A stretch of DNA of 64,000 nucleotides, taken from assembly GCA_022821645.1 (NCBI GenBank), contig JAJEDE010000002.1, forward strand, positions 1-64,000, given 5' to 3'. The notes beneath the pieces are model-generated. The model saw only the letters and a program-made list of their open reading frames with translations. It ran no database searches and was not told the origin of the DNA. Every line of letters begins with the position of its first letter. Positions within the stretch are counted from its first letter, which is position 1. Below are positions 33,646 to 40,290 of this stretch, in pieces. A program made the translations under genes and the position numbers. The stretch comes from Chloroflexota bacterium (GTDB taxonomy: Bacteria; Chloroflexota; UBA11872).

Positions 33646-35067
33646 CTAAGGCGAGGACTCGGATAGCCAGGTTTGGAGGTGTTGGGTGTCGGCGGGGGTC
33701 CAGTGGCCCTGGTGGGCGTTGGTCATGGCCTGGTTGAACTCGGTGGGGGTGAGGGGTTGGCGCCAGGATTGGAGGTTTTGGCGGTCGTTGCGTTTGGCGC
33801 GGGCGTCGGCGTCGTCGAAGTCGACGAGGGATTCGAGGCGGGCGTCCAAGCGTTGGACGACCTGGGGGTGGGTTTGGGCGAGGTCATTTATCTCCTCGGG
33901 GTCGTCGTCCAGGTTGAATAGCTGGGGGGCGTAGCCGGCGTAGCGGATGTATTTCCAGGGGCCCTGACGCCACATGGCGATTCCGGTGTTTGAGAAGTTG
34001 CTGTGGTATTCGCTGAAGACGTAGTCGGGGTGGTTGGTGGCTTCGCCGCGGCAGAGGGGGAGGAGGGAGTGGCCGTCGAGGCCTTCAGGATGTTCCAGGC
34101 CGGCGATGTCCATGAGGGTGGGGAAGAGGTCGATGAGGGAGACGAGTTGGTCGGAAATGACGCCCTGCTGGAGGCCGGGGCCGGCGACGATGAGGGGGAC
34201 GCGGGCGGAGGCTTCGTAGAGGGCGTTTTTGAGGGTTTGGCGGTGTTCCATGTTCATTTCGCCGTGGTCGCTGGCGAAGATGATGTAGGTGTTGTCGAGC
34301 TGGCCGGTGGCCTCCAAGGTGTCGAGGACCTGGCCGAGCATGGCGTCGGTTTCGGCAACCATGGCGAAGTAGTGGCGGCGGATGGCGAGGATTTCTTCGT
34401 TGGTGAAGTGGCCGTGGGTGTTCTTGGTGACGCTCATGTAGTCCATGACGGGGTGGAGGTTGGACTCGTAGGGCGGGAGGGTGACGTGGGCGGGGTCGAT
34501 TGTGTCGAGCCAGTGTTGGGTGGCGCGGAAGGGGGGATGGGGGACGTTGGTGCTGGGGTAGAGGAAATAGGGCGGGTCTTCGGGGGAGTGGTTGGTGAGG
34601 AATTGGCAGGCGTTGTCGATCTGGCGCCAGTCGCCTTCGTGGGCGCGTGGGGTGTCAGGCTCCATGACGATGGCCTGGGGGCGGGGGTTATGGGGGCGCT
34701 TGATGTTGGCGGCGCGCATCCAGGCGGTGAGGCGGGCTTTGAGGGAGTGGCCGCCGACGCGGTAGTCGGTTTTGCCGAATACGTGGAGGCCGTAGCCGGC
34801 GTGTTGCAGATGGGTGCCGAAGGTGGGGGCGTCCATGGGGAGGCCGGAGGGGTTGTTCCAGGCCTGGACGCGGTGGACGTATTGGCCGCTCCAGTAGCTG
34901 GCGCGCGAGGGGGCGCACTGGGGGGAATTGCAGTAGGCGTTGCTGAAGGAGGTGCCGCGGGCGGCGAGGCGGTCCAGGTTGGGGGTGTGGGCGGCGGGGT
35001 GGCCAAGGTGGCGCATGACGCGGCCGTCCATGCTGTCGGTCATGAAGACGATGATGTTGGGGGGCAT
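33646..35067 (-). CDS. Sulfatase (alkaline-phosphatase superfamily)
   Basis: 473 aa. The formylglycine motif is C51-A-P-S-R (CAPSRASYWSGQ); metal ligands include Asp11 in FMTDSMDG and the later ASDHGEMNMEH segment. It lacks a signal peptide, so cytoplasmic action or an unusual export route is implied. Substrate not predictable; such sulfatases desulfate polysaccharides or lipids, and a maturase (anaerobic or FGE type) is needed elsewhere in the genome. Start ATG 35067. Downstream is only a short D-repeat gap. Confidence 0.9.
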   Translation of the reverse strand: MPPNIIVFMTDSMDGRVMRHLGHPAAHTPNLDRLAARGTSFSNAYCNSPQCAPSRASYWSGQYVHRVQAWNNPSGLPMDAPTFGTHLQHAGYGLHVFGKTDYRVGGHSLKARLTAWMRAANIKRPHNPRPQAIVMEPDTPRAHEGDWRQIDNACQFLTNHSPEDPPYFLYPSTNVPHPPFRATQHWLDTIDPAHVTLPPYESNLHPVMDYMSVTKNTHGHFTNEEILAIRRHYFAMVAETDAMLGQVLDTLEATGQLDNTYIIFASDHGEMNMEHRQTLKNALYEASARVPLIVAGPGLQQGVISDQLVSLIDLFPTLMDIAGLEHPEGLDGHSLLPLCRGEATNHPDYVFSEYHSNFSNTGIAMWRQGPWKYIRYAGYAPQLFNLDDDPEEINDLAQTHPQVVQRLDARLESLVDFDDADARAKRNDRQNLQSWRQPLTPTEFNQAMTNAHQGHWTPADTQHLQTWLSESSP

Positions 35068-35216: not shown

Positions 35217-35732
35217 TTAGCAGGTGGGTTGGTATTCGGTGGGTTTGAAGATGCCGGCGGTGCGTTGGAGGTGGCGGACGTAGCAGATGACCTGGTCGAC
35301 CTGGGTTTCGGAGACGCCGGGGACGGGGAGCATGTTGCCGAAGGTCCAGTGGTGCTGACGGACGCCGCGTAGAACGGCGATATGGAAGGCGGCATCGCCA
35401 TGGTGGCCAGGGTGGTAGATGCGGTCGATAAAGGTGGGGCCGAGGTTGGTGCCGGAGGCTTCGGGGCCGTGGCATTGGGCGCAGTGGGTATTGAAGACGG
35501 TTTCGCCCTGTCGGGCTGTCTCGTTTAGCTCGGCCGGGGCAGCGGCGGGTTGGGGGGCGGAGTCGTGCGCTCCGTGTGGTTCGGAGGTTTCGCCGCAGGC
35601 GACGAGGGCCAGCAGCGCGGCAAAAATAAAAAGGAGGGACGCCACGGTGGCGGGGTGGCGCCCCTCCGGGGGGGTCCCTGCGTTGGGCGCGCAGGGTGCC
35701 TTCCGGGGTGGCGGAAGGCAACTAGATGTCAT
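35217..35732 (-). CDS. Lipoprotein c-type cytochrome
   Basis: 171 aa from ATG 35732, or 142 aa from GTG 35645, which places the hydrophobic signal at the very N-terminus and may be the real start. Signal LLFIFAALLALVAC gives lipobox Cys46. Heme motif CAQCH (84-88); Met ligand probably in GNMLPVPG. Single heme, membrane-tethered electron carrier. Separated by only 6 bp from the Gfo/Idh stop upstream, so possibly the same transcript. Confidence 0.85.
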   Translation of the reverse strand: MTSSCLPPPRKAPCAPNAGTPPEGRHPATVASLLFIFAALLALVACGETSEPHGAHDSAPQPAAAPAELNETARQGETVFNTHCAQCHGPEASGTNLGPTFIDRIYHPGHHGDAAFHIAVLRGVRQHHWTFGNMLPVPGVSETQVDQVICYVRHLQRTAGIFKPTEYQPTC

Positions 35733-35738
35733 GTGAGG

Positions 35739-36803
35739 TTACATGTCGACGATGGGCATGGTAACGCGTACGTTGCCGCCCGCGGAGGATTGGAGGGCGC
35801 CGAGCAGGATTTCCATGACCTGGCGGGCTTCCTTGGGTCCACATGAGGGGGTGCCGCCGTTGTTGATGAGGTCGATGAGCTCGACGACGGCGCCGGCGAT
35901 GTGGCCCTGGGTGTACTGGGTGTGGGGGATGTCGGAGGTGACCAGGGTGCGAGATTCGTTCACGGTGGTGAGGGTGGCTCGTTCCTGGGTGACGCGCAGG
36001 ATTCCGTCGGAACCGAAGACGTCGACATCAAAGACGCCGGGCATGGGCTTGCACATGTTCCAGAAGGCTCGGACGTCGTTGTCGTATTCGATGAGGATGC
36101 TGACGGCAGGGTCGGTGTCGGGGTCGTGGCCGCCGTCGCTGGCGTAGCGGGGGCCGTAGTCCTCGAAGTTGATTTCGTTGACGGCGTAGACGGCGGAGGG
36201 GTTGCCCTGGGCGTACCAGTTGATGGTGTCGCACATGTGGGTGCCGTTGCGGAAGAGCATGGCGCGGGGACCGCCCTGGTTGGCGACGACGCGCTTGACG
36301 TCACCAATGGCGCCGTCTTCGATGAGCTGGCCGGCCTGGACCCAGGGGAACATCCAACGTCGGGTGTGGTCGACGAGGAGCGGGATGCCGGCGTTGTTGA
36401 CGGCTTCGATGATGCGGTCAGCATCGGCGAGGGAGGAGGCGATGGGCTTTTCGCAGAGGATGCCCTTGACGCCGGCTTCGGCGCCATCGATGCAGATCTG
36501 GGCGTGGACGTTATCGCCGGTGACGACGCTGAGGATGTCGAGGTTTTCCTTCTCGAGCATCTCGACGTGGCTGGTGTAGGTGTTGACCTCGGGGAGGGTG
36601 TCGTTCCAGTCGGCGTTGAAGTTGGCGATGGCGCTCTCGTCGAGGTCGCAGACGGCGACGACTTCGGTGTCGGCCACGTGGTGGTAGGCGGACACGTGGG
36701 AGTGGGGCATGGCGGTGCCCCAGCCGGACTGTTCTCCGGTGGATGCCGGCCGCTGGCCGATTCCGGTAAGTCCCACAACGCCGGCGCGCAATTGATCGCT
36801 CAT
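35739..36803 (-). CDS. Gfo/Idh/MocA-family oxidoreductase
   Basis: 354 aa from ATG 36803 (MSDQLRAGVVGLTGIG). N-terminal Rossmann fold with GLTGIGQR in place of the common GxGxxG, catalytic-loop CEKPIASSLADAD (about 117-129), HTRRWMFPW in the active-site region (about 145-153), and a C-terminal alpha/beta dimer domain. NAD(P)-dependent oxidation or reduction of a sugar or polyol is expected. It resembles the plus-strand Gfo/Idh at 38113 in the G-TGIG and HTRRW features, suggesting a common subfamily. Confidence 0.9.
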   Translation of the reverse strand: MSDQLRAGVVGLTGIGQRPASTGEQSGWGTAMPHSHVSAYHHVADTEVVAVCDLDESAIANFNADWNDTLPEVNTYTSHVEMLEKENLDILSVVTGDNVHAQICIDGAEAGVKGILCEKPIASSLADADRIIEAVNNAGIPLLVDHTRRWMFPWVQAGQLIEDGAIGDVKRVVANQGGPRAMLFRNGTHMCDTINWYAQGNPSAVYAVNEINFEDYGPRYASDGGHDPDTDPAVSILIEYDNDVRAFWNMCKPMPGVFDVDVFGSDGILRVTQERATLTTVNESRTLVTSDIPHTQYTQGHIAGAVVELIDLINNGGTPSCGPKEARQVMEILLGALQSSAGGNVRVTMPIVDM

Positions 36804-36919
36804 GACTGCCTCCGTGGCAACCCGCACGCCGGGCCGAGCCGGCGCCTGGGAGTGGATTGTACGGCGCGGGGGATGGAGGCGTGGCCCGGAAGACCGCTGA
36901 CCCGGCGCTGGGGACAGCT

Positions 36920-36996
36920 CCGGCCCATAGCCTCACGGCTCTCCAAGGTGTTCACCATGTCTCGGAACGGGTGTTCACGATGTGTCCGGTCTGGAC
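36920..36996. mobile_element. Solo right end of an IS481-like element
   Basis: 77 bp almost identical to 50161-50238, beginning CCGGCCCATA and ending GTCCGGTCTGGACA. It contains the tandem GTTCACCATGTCTC-GAACGG and GTTCACGATGTGTCCGG blocks of the terminal inverted repeat. No transposase sequence adjoins, so this is a deletion scar or footprint of the element. Confidence 0.6.
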
Positions 36997-37048
36997 ATCC
37001 CCACGGGGAGAGGGAGCAAGAAGGGGCGTTTCTTCGGGGGTAGGGGGG

Positions 37049-37990
37049 TTAGAGGGCTTTTAGGGCGTCGACGATGGCGTTGGCGGTTACCAGGTCGTGG
37101 ATGCCGGAGTAGATCTGGGACCAGCGGACGATGCCGTTGGTGTCGATGATGAAGGCGGAGCCGGTGGCGAGGTTGTCGCCGTAGAGGTTCCAGACGTCGT
37201 AGGCCTTGGGGACGTCGGTGGAAAGGTCGTAGACGACCTGGAAAGGGACGCCGAGGCTATCGATGGCCCACTTGGCGCCTTCGAGGTTGTCGGTGCTGAG
37301 GGCGACGACTTCAGCGTTCTGCGCGGCGATCTGCTGGTAGTTGTTTTGCAACTCCACGAGTTGCGTGCGACAGGTCCCTCACCAGAAGGCGCGGTAGAAG
37401 ACGAGGACGACGTTCTTCTGGCCCTGGAAGCTGGCGAGGCTGACTTCGCCGCCGCGGGCGCTGGGGAGGGTGAAGAGGGGGGCCACGGGACCGGCGGCGA
37501 CCTGGGGCGCGGGGGCCTCGGTGGCGGCGGGCGGGGCCTCGGTGACCACGGGCGTGGGTTCGGCGGTGGCCTGGGGGGCGGCGGTTGCGGGCGCGGCGGT
37601 TGGCTGGGGGGCGGCCGTGGTTGGGGCTGCGGTTGCGGCGGGTGCCGGAGCGGCGGTGGCCGGGGCCTGGGTGGCGGGCGGCTGGGTGGCCGGGGCCTGC
37701 GTTGCGGGGGCTTGCGTGGCGGGAGGCTGGGTGGCCGCAGGCGGCGGTTGGGTGGCTGGAGCGGGGGGCTGGGTTGCCGGGGCGGCGGCCACGGCGGTGG
37801 CCGGAGCGGCCGTTGGCGGGGGAGCGGCTGGTTGCGCGGCGGGCGTGGACGCGACGGCAGGCGGGGGCGGGGCCGGTTGAGGGTCTTCGCCGCAGGCGGC
37901 GAGGCCGACGGCGGCTATGCCGGCGACGGCGGCCGCGACGAGCCAGCGGACCCGTCCGGGTCTCTGTCTGAACGCGTTGGTGATTTGCAT
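37049..37990 (-). CDS. Probable selenocysteine-containing redoxin/peroxiredoxin-like lipoprotein
   Basis: Read through an in-frame UGA (37381-37379), the gene encodes 313 aa. Lipoprotein signal (LVAAAVAGIAAVGLAAC, lipobox Cys33), a Pro/Ala/Thr-rich linker about 34-165, then an AhpC/TSA-Redoxin domain: PLFTLPSARGGEVSLASFQG, VVLVFYRAFW-U204-GTC207-RTQLVELQ, and VALSTDNLEGAKW to DALKAL. UGA occupies exactly the CxxC (peroxidatic) cysteine position of FYRG-W-C-P-x-C homologues, giving UxxC. The frame continues without another stop for 109 codons. A SECIS-like hairpin follows (37348-37364). A recent TGC to TGA nonsense mutation is the alternative. Expected role: thiol peroxidase or reductase on the outer face of the membrane. 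Confidence 0.82.
37348..37364 (-). promoter_or_regulatory. SECIS-like stem-loop downstream of the in-frame UGA
   Basis: On the minus strand GCAACTC-GTG-GAGTTGC forms a perfect 7-bp stem with apical loop GUG, or loop CGUGG if the top pair opens. It begins 14 nt, and its loop 21 nt, after the UGA. Bacterial SECIS elements are hairpins immediately 3' of the UGA inside the coding region with a G/GU in the apical loop, bound by SelB; position and loop fit. Confidence 0.7.
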
Positions 37991-38112
37991 GGGTTTCGCT
38001 AAGTCTGACAGAACGGGCGGGCGTTGGCTGGCATACGTTCGGCCATCCGTCGCGTCGTCCTATGACCTAAGGTTAGCGCGTTGGGTGGTGCTGTGTGCGA
38101 GGACGGTGGGAC

Positions 38113-39141
38113 ATGGCGCAGAAGGATCGGTATCGAGCGGCGGTGGTGGGTCTGCGGGGGATTGGCGCGGGGGCTGAGAAGGAGTCGTTCAGCGGGAACC
38201 GGCGGGCGGCGCCGCATACGCATGCCTCGGCCCATAGCGCGCATGAGCGGATTGACCTGGTTGCGGGGTGCGACCTGGATGGGTCGTTGCTGGACAAGTT
38301 CCGGGAGACGTGGGGCGACGGGCCGGCGCTGTATGACGACCTGGACGCGATGCTGGCGGCGGAGAATATCGACATCCTGAGCATTGCGACCTCGGATCAC
38401 ACACACGCGGCGCTGGGAATCACCGCGATCGAGGCGGGCGTGCCGATGGTGTTTTGCGAGAAGCCGATGACGACGACGCTGGAGGACGCGGACGCGCTGG
38501 TTGGGGCGGTGGAGGACGCGGGGACTGCGTTCAGCGTGGATCACACGCGGCGCTGGGACCCGTTTTTCCGGCAGGCGTATGACTTCATCCAGTCGGGGCG
38601 GATCGGGCGCGTGGTGCGAGTTGTGGGGACGTGGGGCGGCAAGCGGGCGTTGGAGTACCGGAACGGGTCGCACACCGTAGACGCAGTGAACATGTACGCG
38701 GGCGGATCGCCGGCGTGGGTGGTGGGGGTGCATGAGCCGCCTGGCGAGTGGGCCGAACCGGCGCCGAGCGCGCTGGTGCAGTACGACAACGGGGTGCTGG
38801 CGTTTATCAACCAGACGAAGTCCATGCCGAAGTTCACGGAGTGGCAGGTGTTCTGCGAGCAGGGGCGGGTGCGGATTGGCGGGGTGCACTCGACGGTGGA
38901 GTTCGAGGCGACGACGCCGAGCGGGCAGAAGGAGTGGCTGGAACGACAGTTGCCGACGCAGAAGGTGTATCGCTCGGCCATGTTGAGCAGCATCGACAAC
39001 CTGATCCAACGGCATGAGGGCGGGCCGGAGACGTTTGCGAACGTGCGGACAGGGTTGATGGCGGTGGAGGTGATTGAGGCGATGCGGCGGTCGCACGCGG
39101 CGGGGCAGGCGAAGGTGGAGTTTCCGCTGGCGCGGGGGTAG
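38113..39141 (+). CDS. Gfo/Idh/MocA-family oxidoreductase
   Basis: 342 aa from ATG 38113, preceded by GGTGGGA. N-terminal Rossmann domain (AAVVGLRGIGAGAE), catalytic segment CEKPMTTTLEDAD (about 116-128), active-site HTRRWDPFFRQ (about 143-153), then the C-terminal dimerisation domain. NAD(P)-linked sugar/polyol dehydrogenase or reductase, substrate unknown. It is divergent from the selenoprotein gene with a 122-bp shared upstream region. The closest relative in the window by motifs is the protein at 35739. Confidence 0.9.
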   Translation: MAQKDRYRAAVVGLRGIGAGAEKESFSGNRRAAPHTHASAHSAHERIDLVAGCDLDGSLLDKFRETWGDGPALYDDLDAMLAAENIDILSIATSDHTHAALGITAIEAGVPMVFCEKPMTTTLEDADALVGAVEDAGTAFSVDHTRRWDPFFRQAYDFIQSGRIGRVVRVVGTWGGKRALEYRNGSHTVDAVNMYAGGSPAWVVGVHEPPGEWAEPAPSALVQYDNGVLAFINQTKSMPKFTEWQVFCEQGRVRIGGVHSTVEFEATTPSGQKEWLERQLPTQKVYRSAMLSSIDNLIQRHEGGPETFANVRTGLMAVEVIEAMRRSHAAGQAKVEFPLARG

Positions 39142-39746
39142 GCGGGTAACGGCGGAAGGGGAGCGGGCGGGCGCGCAGGGGCGGATTTTGGCGGGGGGTG
39201 AAGGGGGGAGCTGTCTCTCGCCCGCCCCACCCCGAGAGGGGGTCGGGCTGGAGAGAGTCCGCTTGGGCGGGTTTTTTGGCTGGTTGGCCACCGTGGTCCG
39301 GGCGGGGCGGGGACGGCCGGGGTGAAGGACGGGCGCGGATTCGGAGGCATCAAGCGCCTGGGGTGCTGGGAGCCAGGGGCGACAGGGTGCGCAGTGGTTG
39401 ATCGGGGTGCTGGGCGCCGGCTGAAGACGCCGGAGTGACGGGTGGAGGAAGGGGAGAGGGGTAGGAAGGGGAGAGGTGCGAGGGTAGAGAAGTGAGAGGA
39501 AGAAGGGGAGAGGCGAGAGGGCAGAGGAGTGAGATGAAGAAGGTAAGTGGGGAGAGGGGAAAAGAGGGAGAGGGTAAAAGAGTGGGACGAGACGGGGGAG
39601 CGGGTGAGAGGAGAGGCGGGGACGCCGGGGGAGCGCGGAAGCGGCAAGTCGTCGGATTAGGCGGCGGAGGGGCATGGGGGATGGGGTTGCGAGGCTTACT
39701 CGGATAGTTTACATTCTGAGTACGGATGTGGTCAAGTGGGTGGAAG
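39142..39746. repeat. D/B/GA-rich repeat gap plus minus-strand promoter
   Basis: D-like (CTCTCGCCCGCCCCACCCCGAGAGGG, interrupted, about 39211-39245), a short B piece (GCCGGCTGAAGACGCCGG, 39416-39433) and long GA-rich tracts (39440-39625). The leader GGTTGCGAGGCTTACTCGG (39685-39703) is shared with 12467-12485. No gene is supported; the long open reverse frame here is low-complexity. Confidence 0.5.
39706..39735 (-). promoter_or_regulatory. Sigma-70-type promoter, minus strand
   Basis: Reverse strand: TTGACC (39730-39735), 18-nt spacer, TAAACT (39706-39711), followed by the shared leader and an ATG at 39675 opening MPLRRLIRRLAASALPRR. Third member of the set at 12490 and 31841, though the palindrome is degenerate. 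Confidence 0.4.
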
Positions 39747-40290
39747 TGTCCAGACCGGACACATGGTGAACAGGTGTTCGGAGACATGGTGAACACTCTT
39801 GAGCGGGCTCCCGGGGGTCGAGGGTCCTCAGGTCGTCGGTCAGAAAGCGGATCGCCCAGGAGCCATCGGTGGCGGTGGGGCGAAAGGCCACGGCCTGGCC
39901 GCGCAACGCCTTGGGCACCCGCAGGTGGCGGCCCTGGAAGGACACCCAGCCGCCGGCCTGGACCTTGCGGACCTGATCGTCGGGGCCGTAGGGCAGGGCC
40001 AGCGGCGCCCGCAGGGCGTGCATTGATGGCAGTGCGCGCAGGGCCACCACTGCGGGCTCGTCCTCGCCCGTGGCTGCCAGCACGATGTGCGGGGGGAGGG
40101 CCTGGACCTGGGCCTGCCAGCGTCGCCGGCCGCAGCGGGCGTGGGGGATCTGCCTGGTTTGGACCTCCACGTGCAAGACGTCCTTCGCCTCATCGGGCTC
40201 GACCGCCAGGTCGGTTGGAGCGTCGTTTGGTAGCCGAGGGATTGGGGTGGGGAGTCTCGCCTTGATTCGTTGGTTAAGTGAGTACGACAA
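39709..40290 (-). pseudogene. Chimeric ORF: unknown N-terminus plus IS481-like transposase C-terminus
   Basis: 193 codons. From about 40030 downward the protein reads DDQVRKVQAGGWVSFQGRHLRVPKALRGQAVAFRPT, the C-terminal beta domain of IS481-family transposases, ending near the element's inverted repeat. The N-terminal part (PTDLAVEPDEAKDVLHVEVQTRQIPHA) is not transposase and is repeated, diverged and frame-broken, at about 40470-40640. The catalytic DDE core is absent, so this is a fusion or decay product. Confidence 0.55.
39747..40030. mobile_element. IS481-like element, left-end fragment
   Basis: Starts TGTCCAGACCGGACACATGG, then TGTTCGGAGACATGGTGAAC; this is the inverted counterpart of the right ends at 36920-36996 and 50161-50238 (TGTGCAGACCGGAGACAT on the reverse strand), giving terminal inverted repeats of about 50 bp. 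Only the 3' part of the transposase gene follows. Confidence 0.6.

Follow-up and report, generated by a model that had tools for sequence, protein, structure and literature searches.

A TGA codon interrupts a redoxin gene in the 64-kb (64,000-nucleotide) stretch of a Chloroflexota contig analyzed here, called the window below, and the question is whether this codon is read as selenocysteine (Sec) in a protein that leaves the cytoplasm and, if so, what such a protein would do there. The gene (37049-37990) lies on the minus strand, as do all of its features given below, and runs from an ATG at 37990 to a TAA at 37049. It would encode 313 residues if the TGA is Sec, comprising a lipoprotein signal peptide, a Pro/Ala/Thr stalk and an AhpC/TSA-type redoxin domain. 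The single in-frame TGA (37379-37381) is codon 204, stands in the context FYRAFW-U-GTCRTQL and is predicted to encode the selenocysteine that forms the first residue of a U-G-T-C motif. The first-pass annotation of this DNA had described the frame as intact before the UGA and for 109 codons after it, and this was confirmed. The domain (residues 168-290; 37121-37489) was matched by Pfam across the UGA, with 96.9 bits for AhpC-TSA (cut-off 26) and 75.2 bits for Redoxin (cut-off 26.6). Because a mechanical ORF list, taking the UGA as a stop, shows the gene as separate ORFs of 203 and 102 residues, the family is easily missed.

The part of the protein ahead of the domain carries the features of an exported lipoprotein. 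The signal peptide (37892-37990) ends in a lipobox, L-A-A-C, at codons 30-33, with Cys33 (37894-37892) as the predicted lipidated residue, and a permissive lipobox pattern was found in each of the 26 class-level copies whose N-terminus is complete, three more copies being cut by contig ends. Two Lgt proteins and one LspA are encoded in the genome. The low-complexity stalk that follows (37496-37891) is about 130-140 residues long and 80% Pro/Ala/Thr. Stalks in the window genus span 128-178 residues with 77-81% Pro/Ala/Thr, except in L039 (46 residues, 22%), while the long-stalk copies of the sister genus (g2) range from 64 to 250 residues, and the two g2 stalked copies given to Pfam both contain an Excalibur calcium-binding domain. 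Copies with FYRGFFU at the site are short-stalked (16-17 residues), and two members of the sister set in the tree (L104 and L105) gave no lipobox match and have a hydrophobic segment. In the window protein, the lipid and the long flexible stalk are predicted to hold the redoxin domain outside the cell.

Selenocysteine machinery and conservation of the TGA

The absence of sel genes had been named by the first-pass annotation as a ground for rejecting a selenoprotein, and such an absence was not found. The source assembly (28 contigs, 95.44% complete, 7.13% contaminated) holds a tRNA-Sec with anticodon UCA (71.2 bits, contig C12), SelB (345.6 bits, C10), SelA (514.7 bits, C1) and SelD (369.4 bits; L018, C12:9971-10897), all above their cut-offs. 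The SelD gene has an in-frame TGA of its own (YAHGAG-U-ACK), at the usual Sec/Cys position of SelD, and is a second selenoprotein gene in the genome. Another match over the tRNA-Sec cut-off (G000:C11:140910-140995, 50 bits) also occurs in several sister genomes.

We then consider the codon in relatives. A class-wide search of 41 genomes, our own included, gave matches at E ≤ 1e-12 in 28 genomes, and 40 matches were listed. The same TGA codon was present in 29 of the 29 site-spanning matches with E ≤ 6.5e-21, own copy included. The 30th match at this threshold (G008) is a contig fragment beginning past the site, and the other 10 on the list are weaker, one having the TGA (L050, in G022) and nine having no stop; L050 stands outside the 29-copy counts and the alignment A5 used below, and inside the counts of 30. 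Close strains with TGC or TGT at the site, the other observation held in advance to speak against recoding, did not appear: among the 13 genomes of the window genus, own included, TGA was found in 10 and a Cys codon in none, G008 offered only its fragment, and G009 and G016 gave no redoxin match in the class-wide search. Six public MAG records (L021-L026; Chloroflexi/Chloroflexota, in three isolate-name series) carry the TGA and are six of the 29 rather than additional copies; the isolate names suggest that the relatives come from sponge metagenomes. When the pattern was opened to any stop, a TAG was matched in L072, but this lies in an unrelated frame and was left out.

dN/dS ratios were computed for nine pairs. 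Past the UGA they were 0.12-0.29 in six close relatives (L021-L025 and L036), 0.59 in L038, 0.51 in L040 and saturated in L039. Over the 30 codons before the UGA, three of the nine pairs gave 0.9-1.24, on one synonymous and three to four other changes, which are too few differences for use. Judged by the downstream ratios, purifying selection is acting past the UGA in the close copies.

TGA serves as an ordinary stop elsewhere in the genome (it ends selA, for example) and the data come from MAGs, which could point to a plain stop, to an error in sequencing or to a mutation in a pseudogene, with the downstream frame left untranslated. We regard this as very improbable in view of the same TGA in 29 of 29 site-spanning close copies, the purifying selection downstream of it and the Sec machinery present in the genome. 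An in-frame TGA that is seemingly read through could also reflect reassignment of the codon in this lineage, for example to Trp or Gly, instead of recoding as Sec. The chance of this is practically negligible, since selA ends with TGA, so that the codon is still an ordinary stop in this genome, the selA and selB frames contain none, the Trp directly before the site is encoded by TGG, relatives have Cys at the TGA column and a tRNA-Sec with a UCA anticodon is present. Pseudogene formation, sequencing error and codon reassignment were all rejected on the conservation, the selection, the Cys homologs and the use of TGA as a stop.

Both tRNA-Sec and SelB were found in 17 of the 17 genomes holding the 29 TGA copies. 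In G018 the UGA redoxin, the tRNA-Sec and SelB all lie on one 3.0-Mb contig, so a binning error is not the source of their co-occurrence, and contamination of the MAG was rejected on this contig together with the genus-wide pattern. One MAG (G022, 89% complete) yielded neither tRNA-Sec nor SelB; its weaker UGA relative, L050 (G022:C73), is a redoxin with an in-frame TGA and no visible signal peptide, and we attribute the case to an incomplete bin or a contaminant contig. The in-frame UGA of the window gene is almost certainly read as selenocysteine, and we are highly confident that this takes place in an exported lipoprotein.

The hairpin downstream of the TGA

Bacterial SECIS elements are hairpins located after the UGA, with a small apical loop that begins with G. 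A perfect 7-bp hairpin of this SECIS type with a GUG loop, said earlier to begin 14 nt downstream of the UGA, is indeed present at 37348-37364 (GCAACUC-GUG-GAGUUGC, read from 37364 to 37348), with its loop 21 nt past the UGA; the inner six of its seven pairs are conserved. Its folding energy was ordinary when compared with shuffles (z = +0.42 and -0.86), and an Rfam scan of the 64-kb window returned no family at gathering score, a result that was not counted as evidence either way. As folding energy alone is no evidence, the support for this hairpin comes from its conservation.

All six inner pairs are formed in 28 of the 30 class-level UGA copies, the two others having five (L039) and four (L050). 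None of the 16 Cys-encoding rows forms all six, and the maximum among them is four, seven of the 16 being TlpA-like domains; in one Cys relative (L100) the peptide QLVEL is kept and the hairpin is lost (4/6). Eight more distant exported-type UGA relatives have six pairs (L098, L105, L111, L118 and L144), five (L104 and L112) or four (L101). Other UGA groups (FYRGDWU, RGFxU and similar) show two to five pairs in the same register, and their hairpins, if any, lie elsewhere.

An alignment (A5) was built from 26 distinct sequences, namely the 18 class-level copies, out of 29, that differ from one another over 36 nt, and the eight more distant relatives, the cytosolic-looking UGA groups being left out. 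In A5, 93.4% of the 182 cells pair, a value as high being reached by 0 of 500 shuffles, as was the case for the double-changed cells and for the covariation score, although these shuffle counts overstate independence because the copies are related. Two of the five covariation measures did not exceed the shuffles: double-changed pairs were as numerous in 303 of the 500, and pair types in 295. Slid versions of the stem gave 18-48% paired cells. Seven of the 26 sequences lack the outermost pair, and the inner pair at columns 21-31 is GC in 17, AU in five, GU in two and another combination in two; in L040 this pair is AU within an otherwise GC genus, which looks like a separate compensatory event.

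The peptide by itself also predisposes to a stem. With random codon choice under local codon usage, taken from 11 reading frames, QLVEL alone would give a perfect 6-bp stem in about 11.5% of cases (0.115 per independent sequence) and five or six pairs in 48%. Comparison of the copies indicates that the hairpin is kept with compensatory changes and is lost in the Cys relatives. The residues Q-L-V-E-L-Q, U, C and R are invariant in 28 aligned sequences, and the RNA hairpin may be what holds the protein fixed at Q-L-V-E-L-Q.

Active site and Sec/Cys exchange among relatives

The UGA had been placed by the first-pass annotation at the position of the peroxidatic Cys, and here the alignment led to a different assignment. 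The U204 column is occupied by Thr/Ser in peroxiredoxin-type relatives and by Cys in CxxC relatives, and it is C207 (37370-37372), the second residue of the UxxC, that aligns with the conserved Cys of the peroxiredoxin-type relatives, which is presumably their peroxidatic Cys. Since the peroxiredoxin relatives have Thr/Ser at its column, U204 is the first residue of a thioredoxin-type UxxC and does not stand at the peroxidatic position; typical peroxiredoxins have Thr/Ser three residues before the peroxidatic Cys, and in the window protein that column is U. The active site is therefore best described, from sequence comparison, as a thioredoxin-type U-x-x-C (U204-G-T-C207) on a peroxiredoxin scaffold. 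Structure prediction gave a poor model (mean pLDDT 54, pTM 0.46, from an input alignment of six near-identical rows); in this low-confidence model, read for helix and strand order only, residue 43 (the U) would directly precede a helix at 44-61.

A phylum search gave matches at E ≤ 1e-20 in at least 132 of 400 genomes, and 40 stretches were fetched from the matches listed, besides the loci returned directly. Homologs with Cys at the UGA position, which it had been proposed to look for, were found among these more distant relatives (L132, L149, L121, L100, L102, L103 and L106). In a tree of 73 rows (57 U and 16 C), the Sec/Cys label changes at least six times. Exchanges are seen between L144 (U) and L132 (C) with support of 100/100, between L131 and L134 (both U) and L149 (C) with 100/100, and where L121 (C) stands beside eight U rows (99/80). 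The window protein falls in a clade of 26 fetched rows (support 100/99), all U, that is, a clade of exported, lipid-anchored Sec redoxins without a Cys member among these rows; together with nine FYRGFFU-type rows it makes up a set of 35 rows, again all U, whose support is weak (83/74).

Several relatives depart from the UxxC layout or from its setting. L130 (G149:C43) has TSG-U, which is the TxxU arrangement known in Sec peroxiredoxins, and its genome encodes the UxxC lipoprotein L098 as well. In L118 (G210:C94; codon at L118:1388-1390, minus strand) the site reads RCG-U-GPDR: the second motif Cys is Asp, a Cys stands two residues before the U so that the motif is now CxU, and the hairpin is kept. 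Four of the Cys versions (L100, L102, L103 and L106) carry the domain at the C-terminal end of longer proteins, preceded by a TlpA-like redoxin domain, and in family f26 the Cys form is joined in one protein with a second domain of AhpC-TSA/thioredoxin type.

Gene neighborhood and possible role

Two neighbors on the minus strand recur beside the redoxin gene. An ortholog of the Gfo/Idh/MocA oxidoreductase at 35739-36827 is the redoxin's neighbor in 12 of the 14 loci, the window among them, the exceptions being L078, which meets a contig end, and L082. A c-type cytochrome lipoprotein with a CxxCH motif (35217-35732) has counterparts near the redoxin in 10 of the 13 loci of the window's clade that were scanned, L078 being left out (window, L064-L069 and L079-L081; not L075, L076 or L082), and near none of the FYRGFFU-type redoxins in six loci (L070-L074 and L077). 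In a small control, the cytochrome pattern occurred once in the 64-kb window, at this site, and 96 kb of other loci, partly overlapping, had no instance of it. Three of the six g2 loci (L064, L067 and L068) show the order cytochrome, redoxin, cytochrome, redoxin, Gfo/Idh; two cytochromes accompany three redoxins in L066, and L065 and L069 each have one cytochrome and two redoxins. Pfam confirmed three of the cytochromes, the window copy and the two in L066.

The genes at hand suggest how the protein could be made and could work. SelB, acting on the hairpin after the UGA, would deliver Sec-tRNA(Sec) and codon 204 would become selenocysteine; the signal peptide would direct export of the chain, Lgt would attach the lipid to Cys33 and LspA would make the cut, the genes for insertion and processing being present in the genome. 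The redoxin domain would then sit beyond the membrane at the end of its flexible Pro/Ala/Thr stalk, where the Sec selenolate of U204 would attack a substrate disulfide and C207 would resolve the mixed selenenylsulfide. Electrons might arrive via the one DsbD_TM/CcdA-type protein of the genome (32.1 bits, cut-off 27.1), and the best candidate for a partner of the redoxin is the c-type cytochrome lipoprotein encoded nearby. On the motif, we consider it reasonably probable that the protein acts as an extracytoplasmic thiol-disulfide oxidoreductase, a role favored over that of a peroxidase because of the UxxC layout.

The same selenolipoprotein could be a peroxidase, its Sec reducing lipid or hydrogen peroxide on the membrane's outer face and C207 resolving, as might be expected of an AhpC-TSA/Redoxin domain that scores above cut-off and for which mycobacterial Rv2238c-type peroxiredoxins rank first among PDB sequences (E 3.5e-11). 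The scaffold is indeed shared with Rv2238c/AhpE- and BCP-type peroxiredoxins, but these have Thr/Ser where the window protein has U and a thioredoxin-like UxxC. The peroxidase role is rather doubtful, as the peroxiredoxin Cys position is C207 and not U204, the relative L130 has TxxU as in a Sec peroxiredoxin, and UxxC is the layout given for Prx-like thiol:disulfide oxidoreductases in the available portions of PMC1794560, PMC9312934 and PMC13188914.

The cytochrome lipoproteins beside or between redoxin copies in 10 of the 13 clade loci, with their absence elsewhere in the window and in the control sequence, raise a third role, compatible with the oxidoreductase reading, in which the Sec redoxin would serve cytochrome c biogenesis or electron transfer as a ResA/CcmG-like reductant or partner. 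The match to the ResA profile (NF002854, E 6.4e-12), the f26 fusion of the Cys form to a second AhpC-TSA/thioredoxin-type domain and the presence of the DsbD_TM protein agree with it. ResA is an extracytoplasmic thiol-disulfide oxidoreductase, and it shares with the window protein export, a CxxC-type site and a possible cytochrome c context, although the window protein has Sec for the first Cys and a long stalk and scores 45.7 bits against a cut-off of 170. With three of 13 loci lacking a nearby cytochrome, the FYRGFFU sister group lacking it in six of six and a background control that is small, we give this role a rather low probability. More tentatively still, the stalked Sec redoxins, arranged two or three per array and interleaved with cytochrome lipoproteins, might form a Sec-cytochrome redox relay or a cytochrome maturation unit on the outer face of these Chloroflexota cells.

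An extracytoplasmic oxidoreductase of this type has relatives among described systems. Prx-like thiol:disulfide oxidoreductase selenoproteins with a PF00578 domain and UxxC/UxxU sites are described in the available portions of PMC1088965, PMC2398784, PMC1794560, PMC9312934 and PMC13188914, with WP_010940744.1 as the named exemplar in the last two. The window protein resembles them in its PF00578 domain, its UxxC site and its Cys homologs, a likeness of descriptions rather than of exemplar sequences, and its clade differs from the class as described there by the lipid anchor, the stalk, the tandem arrays and the cytochrome neighbors. The window protein scores below the cut-off of every NCBIfam model. 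The best match is NF040769 (SelL-related redox protein; 51.3 bits, E 1e-13, cut-off 120), a model that each of the 28 aligned members hits at E ≤ 0.001. NF041057 (Rcas_1661 family thioredoxin-like (seleno)lipoprotein) is by name the same kind of protein, a selenolipoprotein with a thioredoxin-like domain, but it gave 12.4 bits against a cut-off of 190 and is a different family.

Exported-type selenoproteins are already listed in the portions available of PMC9312934 (a PioB-family outer membrane protein) and PMC2398784 (secreted-protease-type proteins). Bacterial Prx-like UxxC selenoproteins are thus known and exported ones have precedents, and as NF041057 is on record as well, the clade is a variation on a known selenoprotein kind. 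The lipid-anchored redoxin put forward in the first-pass annotation stands as a lipoprotein by pattern, with Lgt and LspA present, but for the same reasons its novelty is smaller than had been claimed. What appears to be new is a lipid-anchored, stalked, sometimes tandem Sec-redoxin clade in Chloroflexota MAGs, mostly beside cytochrome lipoproteins; no description of a lipid-anchored Sec redoxin family was found in the titles and abstract openings listed from the open-licence PMC literature. Selenocysteine is sensitive to oxidation, and it is a puzzle that a lineage keeps it outside the cell, in several copies beside cytochromes.

The remaining neighbors of the redoxin gene are given for context only: a sulfatase lies downstream on the same strand (33646-35067, minus strand), and a second Gfo/Idh/MocA oxidoreductase is the divergent neighbor (38095-39141, plus strand). 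An ORF at 39709-40290 was considered as IS481-type and was rejected, as it has no Pfam match. It lies beside the second copy of a short repeat made of GTTCAC[CG]ATGT units, which is found in the window at 36950-37000, 39761-39795 and 50214, one copy standing between the redoxin and Gfo/Idh genes. This repeat may be the end of a mobile element.
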